DNA from: Terriglobia bacterium
GTDB lineage: Bacteria > Acidobacteriota > Terriglobia > JAIQFV01
NCBI GenBank assembly: GCA_020072965.1
Contig: JAIQFY010000049.1
Span: 1-39,113, forward strand
Direction of reading: 5' to 3'
DNA length: 39,113 bases
A model generated the notes under the pieces. It searched no databases and was not told where the DNA came from. It saw only the letters and a program-made list of their open reading frames with translations. The first letter of the stretch is position 1, and each line of letters begins with the position of its first letter. Shown one piece after another: positions 28,906 through 34,449 of this stretch. The position numbers and the translations under genes are program-made.

Positions 28906-28926
28906 TTCCCGCCGGCGAGGCGGGAA
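28906..28926 (+). terminator. Hairpin after the DUF481 gene
   Basis: TTCCCGCC and GGCGGGAA form a perfect 8-bp stem with loop GGCGA, 45 bases past the stop. No T-tract follows. It is a probable transcription end for the envelope run. Confidence 0.5.
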
Positions 28927-28962
28927 ATTCGGGACTTCCCTGCCGTTCAGTTAAGGTAAGCC
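28927..28962 (-). repeat. Short dispersed repeat (GGACTGTCCCGAATTT family), copy 1
   Basis: On the minus strand it reads GGCTTACCTTAACTGAACG (28944-28962), then a degraded GGGA...TCCCGAATT core. The 19-base part is an exact inverted match of 31729-31747. Confidence 0.6.
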
Positions 28963-28975
28963 GAAGCTGAAATTC

Positions 28976-29152
28976 CCTGACAATGTGGCACTTGTTGAGA
29001 TGCAAATCCGACTTAACTCGGATTTCGAGGCTGATTCCTTATTAGATTAAAGCCACACAGCGGTGAAATATGGTAGTCTCGGTGGTGAGCCTCAGGAAGA
29101 GCACCTCCTTTCAACGAGGAAGCCCGCCCCGGCGGCCCTCATAACTCTTTTG
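28976..29152 (+). ncRNA. Candidate structured RNA in gene-free region
   Basis: The 438-base gap between the DUF481 and sortase genes has no coding frame. It contains a perfect hairpin AAATCCGA/TCGGATTT (about 29006-29027) and a second hairpin CCTC/GAGG around CTTTCAAC, then GAAGCCCGCCCCGGCGGCCC followed by a short T-run (CTCTTTTG). The central GGTGGTGAGC and the 3' GGCGGC recall the layout of 6S RNA, but the 5' half does not convince me. Treat this as an unverified candidate; it could also be untranslated leader or plain spacer. Confidence 0.25.
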
Positions 29153-29228
29153 TCCACGGTAAATTCGTTTCCGTTGCGCCGCATGCAAAGAATACAGCAA
29201 AAGGGTGGTTGTTAATTTCGGAATTCAG

Positions 29229-29271
29229 GCTTAAGGGAACCTTACTCAGGACTGTCCCGAATTTGGGGCAG
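29229..29271 (+). repeat. Short dispersed repeat, copy 2
   Basis: GGCTTA followed by a degraded arm and the exact 16-mer GGACTGTCCCGAATTT (29249-29264). It lies 28 bases upstream of the sortase start and is in the same orientation as the copy at 31729-31772. Confidence 0.6.
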
Positions 29272-29299: not shown

Positions 29300-30016
29300 A
29301 TGCGAACTCGCAGGATCGAGGGCGTATTGCTGGGGACAGGCCTGACGCTTCTGGCGGTGTGGGGCGGAGCATGGATTCATAGGACCGTCTCATCGCGCAC
29401 TGCGGTCAAGAGATTTGAGGCAGATCAAGCTCGGTCGTCGGGCGTGAATTCGGCGCCTGTGAATGACCCCGCTTTCGGTTCCCGAGTTGAATTCACCTTG
29501 TGGTCTGCGAAGCGAGTGGAAGCTTACAAGGACAGCTTGGTTCAGAAAGTGGATCGTCCCCTGGCTCTTCTTCGCATTCCCAAGATTCACCTCGAGGCAC
29601 CCATATTTAACGATACGGACGACCTGACCTTGAACCGCGGAGTCGGCCGTATTCTCGGAACCGCGCAAGTGGGGGAAGCAGGTAATCTTGGCATTGCGGG
29701 ACACCGGGATGGTTTTTTTCGCGGCCTCAAGGATCTCGCGCCGGGGGACAAGATTGAGCTCGTTCGCATTGGCCGGTCAGATACCTACGTCGTGGAGAAA
29801 ATTCAGATTGTGAATCCCGAAGATCTCTCTGTGCTGAATCCGACGCCCGTGCCCTCACTGACCCTGGTGACCTGTTTTCCGTTTTACTACGTCGGGAGCG
29901 CACCGCAACGTTATATTGTGCAGGCATCTATAGTGAACTTTGATCAGTCTCATCACGAAGTTAGGCCGTTCGAATCCGCAACCGCAAGAATAAACACAAA
30001 GGAGAATAAAAAATGA
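29300..30016 (+). CDS. Class D-like sortase (membrane transpeptidase)
   Basis: A 238-residue cysteine transpeptidase. An N-terminal membrane anchor (VLLGTGLTLLAVWGGAWI) precedes the sortase fold, with catalytic H135 (GIAGHRDGFF), C192 in TLVTC and R204 in APQRY. LRIPKIHLEAPIF is the usual first strand of the domain. Sortases cut LPxTG-type signals and attach the protein to an amine, in Gram-positives the peptidoglycan cross-bridge. Here the rest of the window is Gram-negative. The next gene encodes an LPKTG protein and overlaps by 4 bp (ATGA), so the two are coupled and form an apparent dedicated pair. AAAAAGGTGA lies upstream of the ATG. Class D is my best guess from motifs. Confidence 0.9.
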   Translation: MRTRRIEGVLLGTGLTLLAVWGGAWIHRTVSSRTAVKRFEADQARSSGVNSAPVNDPAFGSRVEFTLWSAKRVEAYKDSLVQKVDRPLALLRIPKIHLEAPIFNDTDDLTLNRGVGRILGTAQVGEAGNLGIAGHRDGFFRGLKDLAPGDKIELVRIGRSDTYVVEKIQIVNPEDLSVLNPTPVPSLTLVTCFPFYYVGSAPQRYIVQASIVNFDQSHHEVRPFESATARINTKENKK

Positions 30017-30810
30017 ATCTTAAACAGCTAACCATCGGTGTTTTGCACAAACTGGTGGTGGCGGGCGTCGTTTTACTCGCGCTTGCCTTCACCCTCAACG
30101 CGCAAGTGAAGTCCACAACAAAAGTAGAGCACGGCCCAGCGGCCCGTACTGTCACAATAGAGCGCGGGGAAGTGGTGCATGTATCCGGCAACAACGTTGT
30201 CATCAAAATGGAGAATGGGGAGATCCGGCATTTCGACAATGTCCCCGACAGCGCGACGGTCGACGTCGATGGCAAGCAACTCACGGTCCACGATCTTAAA
30301 CCCGGCATGAAAATCCAAAGGAGCACTGTTACGACGACGGTGCCGAAGACGATCACAACGGTGAGAACCGTGACGGGTACCGTATGGAACGTTGTTCCTC
30401 CCACTAGCGTGACGCTGACCCTGGCGGATGGCACCAACAAGTCGTTCAAAATTCCGAAAGGTCAGAAATTCATGGTCGACGGAAAGGAAACCGATGCCTT
30501 CGCTCTCAGGAAGGGTATGAAAGTTTCTGCGACCGCCGTCACCGAGGTTCCGGAAACTGAGGTTCGTCATGAGGTGGCGAGAACCGGGAAGATGCCACCG
30601 CCGCCCGCACCGATCCCGGCCGACGCCCCGATTCTCATCGAAGAGCCGGCTAAGGCGGCGCCTGTAGCCATGGCGGCTCCCGCTCAAGCAGAACCGGCCC
30701 CGAAGAAGCTGCCGAAGACCGGGAGTTATTTGCCGCTGATTGGCTTGCTCGGAGCGTTCTCGACAGCCCTGGGCCTGGGGTTGAAGGCGGTCCGGGCCTC
30801 TCGGTCCTAG
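30013..30810 (+). CDS. Secreted LPXTG-type protein, likely sortase substrate
   Basis: A 265-residue protein with a signal peptide (cut near LNA-Q, residue 30). Residues ~40-185 carry two similar beta-rich segments (VVHVSGNNVVIKMENGEIRH with KQLTVHDLKPGMKI; VTLTLADGTNKSFKIPKG with LRKGMKVSATAV), suggesting a repeated small beta domain. A Pro/Ala-rich linker (~195-230) leads to LPKTG at 233-237, a hydrophobic stretch and an Arg-rich end (KAVRASRS). This is a complete cell-wall sorting signal. It overlaps the sortase gene by 4 bp. The final anchor point in a Gram-negative envelope is unknown. Its function beyond being surface- or wall-anchored cannot be inferred. Confidence 0.88.
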   Translation: MNLKQLTIGVLHKLVVAGVVLLALAFTLNAQVKSTTKVEHGPAARTVTIERGEVVHVSGNNVVIKMENGEIRHFDNVPDSATVDVDGKQLTVHDLKPGMKIQRSTVTTTVPKTITTVRTVTGTVWNVVPPTSVTLTLADGTNKSFKIPKGQKFMVDGKETDAFALRKGMKVSATAVTEVPETEVRHEVARTGKMPPPPAPIPADAPILIEEPAKAAPVAMAAPAQAEPAPKKLPKTGSYLPLIGLLGAFSTALGLGLKAVRASRS

Positions 30811-31226: not shown

Positions 31227-31242
31227 GGACTGTCCCGAATTT
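31227..31242 (+). repeat. Short dispersed repeat core, copy 3
   Basis: An exact GGACTGTCCCGAATTT, identical to 29249-29264, placed exactly where the group II maturase similarity ends. Confidence 0.6.
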
Positions 31243-31319
31243 ATGGTTCCGAGCTTATGTCTCCGGTTTGCATAACTGAACGGTTTTGAGTGGCGCTGGA
31301 ATTATCAAGCTTCGCAGGG

Positions 31320-31633
31320 GCGAAATAAAGTAGTCCCGCCTCGCGCATAGGCGTCAACCTAAAGAGGATTGATTTTAAAGGGGGAGGTGGACGGTTCTGT
31401 CGAATCCCCCCAGCGGAAGCTGGGGGAAAGTTCAAGTACAGCCCACAAACACAGGCTCCAAAAGTATACTACCCCCCCCTCATCCCGCTTCGCGGGATGA
31501 GGGGGGGGAGATAATGAAAATGGGATCGCTGCTGTAGGCTGTAGCTGAATCATCCCCCGGCTTCCTCCGGGGGGATTATGGACGCCGGTCTTAGGTTGAC
31601 GCCTATGCGCCTCGCGGGACTACTTTATTTCGC
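31320..31633 (+). mobile_element. MITE-like element, copy 1 (non-coding, 43-bp terminal inverted repeats)
   Basis: Terminal inverted repeats 31320-31362 and 31591-31633 match at 40 of 43 positions by eye (outer end GCGAAATAAAGTAGTCCCGC, inner end GGCGTCAACCTAA). Inside are three hairpins: CCCCCAGC/GCTGGGGG with GGAA loop (31407-31426), a 17-bp stem with TTC loop (31472-31508, C-run, TCATCCCGC and complement), and ATCCCCCGG/CCGGGGGGAT (31552-31576). No transposase is encoded. A second copy in opposite orientation lies at 36672-36957. No clear target-site duplication was found by eye. The region 31634-31728 and 31773-31869 next to it holds no gene. Confidence 0.8.
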
Positions 31634-31728
31634 TGCGGCGCGGCTTTATAAAGGCATCCACTTCAGAATCCGGGCTAAGCCGGGATTACAGCTCAAAAAG
31701 CGCCAACCTGTCAGGGAATCTCACCATG

Positions 31729-31772
31729 GGCTTACCTTAACTGAACGATATTGGGACTGTCTCGAACTTGCC
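31729..31772 (+). repeat. Short dispersed repeat, copy 4
   Basis: GGCTTACCTTAACTGAACG (exact inverse of 28944-28962) followed by a diverged core GGGACTGTCTCGAACTT. It lies in the leader of the transglycosylase gene. Confidence 0.6.
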
Positions 31773-33894: not shown

Positions 33895-34449
33895 CTACTT
33901 CTTCCCCCCCTCCACGTCGAATAACACTGCCGTAGTCCAGGTGATGTCCACGCGATCGCCCACTTTCACTTTCTCGAGGGCCTTCTTGTCAGTCACCCGA
34001 CGACTGTATTTCCAGCCGTTCGGCCCCACAAATGTTATCGAAGGAATGCTGCGATCTATTTCCTGGATGGTAGCTGTTATCACCCGCTGCTTGGCTATAG
34101 TCCCCGCGGGTTTTTCCCCTGCCGCAGGCGTGATGGCGGCCTTGTCGCTATCGACATCGGGCTCGCCGGCGGGCTTCAGGCGAACGATCACGTTGTCATA
34201 GTACCGTATCGAGATCGCGTCCCCGATCTTGATCTGCGGGAACCGCTTGGCCCCTTCAGGCACGTCGACTGTTGTGAACTCGCCCTTGCTGTCTTTGAGC
34301 GTCAGAACCCGTTTTTCATGATCGATCGCCTCGACGGTTCCCTTAACGACGGTCATGTCGCCCGTGAGCGTCTTGCTCTGCGCTCCGAGGACGGAGACCA
34401 ATGATAGCAACAACACTGCAGCCATCAAAAGACTGCTTACTCTTCTCAT
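33895..34449 (-). CDS. Small secreted protein of unknown function
   Basis: A 184-residue protein with a clear signal peptide (LLMAAVLLLSLVSVLGAQ) and AGGAGG five bases before the ATG. The mature chain has two related beta-rich segments: MTVVKGTVEAIDHEKRVLTL with GDAISIRYYDNVIVRL, and ITATIQEIDRSIPSITFVGP with VGDRVDITWTTAVLFDV. They look like tandem OB-like or small beta-barrel repeats, similar in style to the repeats of the LPKTG protein at 30013-30810. No catalytic motif is seen. Probably periplasmic. Confidence 0.8.
   Translation of the reverse strand: MRRVSSLLMAAVLLLSLVSVLGAQSKTLTGDMTVVKGTVEAIDHEKRVLTLKDSKGEFTTVDVPEGAKRFPQIKIGDAISIRYYDNVIVRLKPAGEPDVDSDKAAITPAAGEKPAGTIAKQRVITATIQEIDRSIPSITFVGPNGWKYSRRVTDKKALEKVKVGDRVDITWTTAVLFDVEGGKK

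Follow-up and report, generated by a model that had tools for sequence, protein, structure and literature searches.

A recurrent pair of a class D-like sortase and its predicted LPKTG substrate in diderm Acidobacteriota

We describe a two-gene unit from a soil bacterium of the phylum Acidobacteriota that, judged from sequence, is a recurrent and dedicated pairing of a class D-like sortase with its predicted substrate in diderm bacteria and is distinct from the pairs formed by class GN sortases and VIT/VWA proteins. The window, i.e. the whole stretch of DNA that was analysed, is contig C82 of the host genome (JAIQFY010000049.1, positions 1-39,113, forward strand, 39,113 nucleotides). The genome spans 5.9 Mb in 108 contigs and is estimated to be 100% complete, and the closest named relatives of the window sortase belonged to Acidobacteriota subdivision 2 (gp2; 59–63% identity). 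LptD and Omp85-family proteins were encoded in this genome, which bears out the Gram-negative context that an earlier note had proposed for this DNA. The host MurE contains DNPR, a motif that we take to be typical of the diaminopimelate-adding enzyme, and LptD, Omp85 and this motif together were read as an outer membrane with lipopolysaccharide plus peptidoglycan of the diaminopimelate type.

Sortase, substrate and sorting signal

The sortase gene (29300..30016, + strand) encodes 238 amino acids with an N-terminal hydrophobic anchor at residues ~8–28, and its product matched PF04203 (E 3e-28; 98.5 bits, cut-off 26.6), which places it in the sortase superfamily. The catalytic span occupies 29702..29911 (+), with His135 at 29702-29704, Cys192 at 29873-29875 and Arg204 at 29909-29911. 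All three residues were invariant in both sortase alignments (11 and 30 sequences), so that the complete His-Cys-Arg triad recognised earlier held in 30 relatives with its residue numbers, as did the coordinates given for the pair (29300-30810). Class D models were the top-scoring ones for this enzyme, and every class-specific model stayed under its cut-off, including the two for class D (NF058671, 127.9 of 140; NF033746, 113.4 of 165). The nearest solved sequence was 2LN7 (E 6.8e-22), known as Bacillus anthracis SrtC, and a plasmid collection returned only distant matches, mostly Gram-positive, the best of which was annotated as a class D sortase. On this evidence the window enzyme is best called a class D-like sortase.

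Class GN sortases (TIGR03784) are dedicated enzymes of Gram-negatives with an LPXTG target in the next gene (PMC3237569), and class GN pairs with VIT/VWA substrates likewise occur in Acidobacteriota, where all three of the tested sortases lying beside VIT/VWA-type substrates exceeded the class cut-off. In contrast, the window sortase reached only 69.9 of 158.25, and neither a VIT nor a VWA domain was found in the window substrate. A class GN identity was rejected because the cut-off was missed by far.

The substrate gene (30013..30810, + strand; 265 aa) shares its first 4 bp (ATGA) with the stop of the sortase gene, and its own likely ribosome-binding site, AGGAG, lies inside the end of the latter (30000..30004, +); a promoter and terminator scan gave no match. 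A predicted signal peptide (residues 1–30, 30013..30102, +; sequence and alignment) is expected to be cleaved after Ala30, leaving Gln31 at the new N-terminus (codons Ala30-Gln31 at 30100-30105), a residue that was invariant in 40 homologues. An N-terminal glutamine rule has been described for Bacteroidetes and is said to be specific to them (PMC5837995). The mature part comprises a first beta-barrel repeat (residues ~45–112, 30145..30348, +), a second one (residues ~113–193, 30349..30591, +) and a flexible linker rich in Pro and Ala (residues 194–232, 30592..30708, +). An AlphaFold2 model built on 40 aligned homologues consisted of two small beta-barrels connected by long strands (pLDDT mostly >85 in either repeat and mostly 85–97 over the block), a disordered linker (~50–60 in much of its length) and a C-terminal helix. 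Alignment, composition and model thus agree with the earlier reading of two small beta repeats followed by a Pro/Ala linker.

Searching with this model, Foldseek found no match at E ≤ 0.001, and in a further fold comparison the best hit (Z 5.2 over 42 residues) was the molybdate-binding domain of ModE. The barrels may be small OB-like barrels, the size of that match allowing nothing more specific; weak matches of substrate relatives to CusF, DUF1344 and DUF5666 also pointed in the OB-like direction, with no function settled by them. A secreted protein of 184 aa encoded 3 kb downstream (33895-34449, − strand) showed weak similarity to CusF (E 2e-4, under the cut-off), and this two-repeat protein weakly resembled the first substrate repeat (hhalign probability 52, 53 columns), a likeness to which we gave no weight.

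The LPKTG sorting motif (residues 233–237, 30709..30723, +) is followed by a membrane helix (residues ~240–257) and a basic tail (30724..30807, +; model and profile), and the C-terminus reads LPKTG-SYLPLIGLLGAFSTALGLGL-KAVRASRS. L233, P234 and T236 were invariant in 40 substrate homologues. The full sorting signal noticed earlier, with its hydrophobic helix and arginines, was confirmed by the sequence and by a profile of acidobacterial signals (E 2.5e-9). TIGR01167 gave it 14.1 bits, narrowly below the cut-off of 15.9, and scored similarly low on the 31-member substrate family described below and on other acidobacterial signals, while Pfam Gram_pos_anchor did not match the window substrate. 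A chance motif was rejected by comparing ORFs that carry [LIMVF]PxT[GASN], a hydrophobic stretch and K/R with those found using permuted motifs: 82 sortase loci provided 5605 ORFs, of which 62 matched cf. 0–2 with five permuted motifs, and a second set of 80 loci gave 65 matches cf. 1–10.

A substrate with repeats beside its own sortase might suggest polymerisation into a fibre in the manner of class C pilins. We regard this as very improbable, since no lysine was invariant among 40 substrates that could act as a pilin-type acceptor, the class C model gave the window sortase 76.9 bits where its cut-off is 160, and the single substrate has no minor pilin adjoining it. The window substrate also lacks cysteine.

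Dedication and recurrence

The host genome contains exactly two sortases. Sorting signals were counted by searches with a profile built from 49 signals adjoining acidobacterial sortases, a profile therefore made partly from the signals that it recovers, and two were found (E 2.7e-12 and 2.5e-9), the next match being noise (E 3.35). Each signal adjoins one of the two sortases. The only TIGR01167 match over the cut-off in this genome, on contig C106, was rejected as a sorting signal, as the 517-aa ORF whose end it covered has no LPxTG motif and as the acidobacterial profile missed it too. The earlier note had proposed that a dedicated pair would be contradicted by many unlinked LPxTG proteins; the profile search rejected such a crowd of targets, and the dedication of enzyme to substrate therefore stood up to that test, with the refinement that the genome has two such pairs instead of one.

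The second unit, on contig C71 (L013:13322-16241), is arranged as substrate, VWA-domain gene and sortase, with MPQTA as an unusual motif. Its substrate (L013:13322-14017) lies upstream of the sortase and ends MPQTASSLPLAGLIGLLSLGAGLALVVISRRAA, and its sortase, unlike that of the window, exceeds the NF058671 cut-off. A similar spacing of 930–1540 bp from substrate to sortase occurred in about ten other acidobacterial loci.

A sortase was present in 60 of 297 sampled Acidobacteriota genomes. About 7 kb was fetched on each side of 80 sortase genes (less at contig ends), and with the window and the C71 unit these made up 82 loci. At 61 of them the three-part signal was present in an ORF; the fetched DNA of the other 21, some of them at contig ends, contained none. 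The profile matched (E ≤ 0.01) in 54 of the 60 sortase-bearing genomes compared to 5 of the 237 without a sortase, where the matches were weak (E 3.8e-4 or more) and in four cases covered the helix part alone. The signals in the profile came from these loci, and what the comparison contributes independently is that sortase-less genomes have almost none. Some genomes carried extra unlinked signals, with four in G188. Dedication is the rule and not universal, and in some hosts the enzyme may serve further targets.

At six loci without a nearby LPxT signal (L097, L109, L112, L116, L120 and L190), sortases had neighbours of ~660–740 aa with a C-terminus made up of a helix and a variant such as LPQGGT, LGQGGT, SPATGT or PTTGT, as well as one neighbour of 220 aa ending in LPVAGT; these variant C-termini are possibly altered sorting motifs.

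In a scan of species genomes, 80 loci were recovered from Acidobacteriota, including cultured strains of Edaphobacter, Granulicella and Acidobacterium, and from bins named Gammaproteobacteria (Lysobacterales, Chromatiales and others), Betaproteobacteria, Myxococcota and Gemmatimonadota, these being mostly metagenome-bin names taken as given. The signal test was positive at 63 of these 80 loci. Signals starting with LP or MP (n = 62) lay downstream on the same strand in 50 cases, within 200 bp in 49 of those, and a 4-bp overlap as in the window was seen in 14 of the 62. The pair of the window itself was found in more than 40 contigs, including those of cultured Edaphobacter (E. modestus and E. 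aggregans) and Granulicella. Across 44 window-type loci, the sortase and its substrate were the only families whose position on the sense strand is conserved. The link drawn earlier to a nearby MltF-type transglycosylase was lost in this comparison, as members of that family do not recur beside the pair in the 44 loci; with no conserved counterpart, the nearness of the MltF gene says nothing, and a functional link was rejected.

The pair is flanked by degenerate dispersed repeats with inverted arms (28925-29264 and 31227-31769), in which GGACTGTCCCGAATTT occurs three times against 0.05 expected, and the upstream repeat stretch has nine further partial copies in the genome. These repeats may be what is left of a small mobile element.

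The substrates form several families that have only the sorting signal in common. A 31-member family includes the C71 substrate, the window type has 10 members, an 8-member family carries the peptidoglycan-binding domain PF01471 in both members tested (E 3e-8 and 4e-8), and large substrates have VIT and VWA domains, again in both members tested. On a tree of 80 sortases, the window-type substrate label (10 rows) required one change compared to a mean of 9.6 after shuffling, and the label of the peptidoglycan-binding family (8 rows) likewise required one, compared to 7.7. Sortase lineage and substrate type thus go hand in hand. Support for the window-type sortase group was modest (66), and nine of its 10 rows formed a group with support 98. 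At a few Sulfotelmatobacter loci (L139, L145, L149, L161 and L163) a window-type sortase faces a C71-family substrate on the opposite strand, an arrangement which suggests that partners can be exchanged.

Proposed attachment of the substrate

The genes, their motifs, dedication, recurrence and co-occurrence are the observed part of our explanation. Building on them, we infer cleavage, acceptor, final location and function, and consider it likely that the pair is a self-contained unit in which the sortase would anchor its substrate to the diaminopimelate amine of periplasmic peptidoglycan. The substrate would be exported by the Sec route and lose its signal peptide, after which its C-terminal helix would hold it in the inner membrane, the barrels and the Pro/Ala linker projecting into the periplasm. 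From its own membrane anchor the sortase would then cut LPKTG between Thr236 and Gly237, the site expected from the chemistry of the sortase family, forming a thioester on Cys192, and would transfer the Thr to an amine, for which the side chain of meso-diaminopimelate (m-Dpm) in a peptidoglycan stem peptide or in the lipid II precursor is the most probable candidate. In this way the thin peptidoglycan of the diderm cell would come to carry a small, covalently bound barrel protein.

In B. anthracis, proteins with an LPNTA motif are joined by SrtC to peptidoglycan through the amine of m-Dpm, in the case of BasH within a compartment between two membranes (PMC3297441). This precedent, the diaminopimelate-type wall of the host and the sister substrates with PF01471 together make m-Dpm our best guess for the acceptor. 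The identity of the acceptor is not readable from sequence, and a cleaved substrate might instead be joined to an envelope glycan, an amino-lipid or a protein and be displayed on the surface. Type IX secretion substrates of Porphyromonas reportedly undergo a sortase-like processing that joins them to a surface glycan (PMC4560394), and some Gram-negative sortases accompany VIT/VWA proteins of unknown place. However, genes for envelope glycans or secretion were not conserved neighbours in the 44 window-type loci, one sister substrate family carries peptidoglycan-binding domains, and the nearest characterised relative uses m-Dpm (PMC3297441), so that we consider such an acceptor unlikely, though worth keeping in view.

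Sortases can hydrolyse their substrates when an acceptor is lacking. The window sequence gives no sign that an acceptor is used, and the sortase could act by hydrolysis only, freeing the barrels from the inner membrane as a soluble periplasmic protein. We think this improbable, as the nearest characterised relative is a transpeptidase (PMC3297441) and the flexible linker preceding the motif suits a tethered product better.

If anchoring to peptidoglycan does take place, the double barrel, joined through its linker of ~39 residues, might in addition bind an outer-membrane protein or the outer membrane itself, forming a tether like Braun's lipoprotein, an extension that we hold to be doubtful. 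Braun's lipoprotein is covalently joined to periplasmic peptidoglycan; it is a lipoprotein attached by L,D-transpeptidases via its C-terminal Lys, whereas the window substrate has no lipobox and its predicted attachment, by a sortase, is through Thr. Such a tether, if real, would mean that the job of the enterobacterial protein is done by a chemically different route.

Relation to known systems and significance

Among known systems, the class D enzyme B. anthracis SrtC with BasI/BasH resembles the window pair in the best-scoring class models, in the nearest solved sequence, in its motif (LPNTA, cf. acidobacterial LPxTA/G plus Ser) and in serving few substrates. Compared to that system, the window sortase falls under the class cut-offs and belongs to a diderm host that has an outer membrane; its substrate is built as a double beta-barrel, and the two genes overlap. 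Exosortase/PEP-CTERM and rhombosortase/GlyGly-CTERM systems likewise pair a C-terminal signal of three parts with an enzyme that processes it, and those of this type with a single target tend towards adjacent genes (PMC3237569). Exosortase and rhombosortase are unrelated multi-pass membrane proteins, whereas the window enzyme is a true sortase.

A literature search found no paper on acidobacterial sortases; subscription journals lay mostly outside its scope and an earlier description is possible. For annotators, the acidobacterial signal [LM]PxT[AG]SxxPL allows targets to be found that come out near or under the cut-offs of the current models. To our knowledge, sortases have been studied almost only in Gram-positive bacteria, and little is known of their role and attachment target in the periplasm. 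The compact two-gene unit occurs in cultured soil genera and can be moved or deleted whole, which makes the attachment question directly testable. Overall, its recurrence in Acidobacteriota and a few other Gram-negative groups makes periplasmic wall anchoring probable, and the wall-anchoring reaction best known from Gram-positives probably also works in the Gram-negative periplasm.
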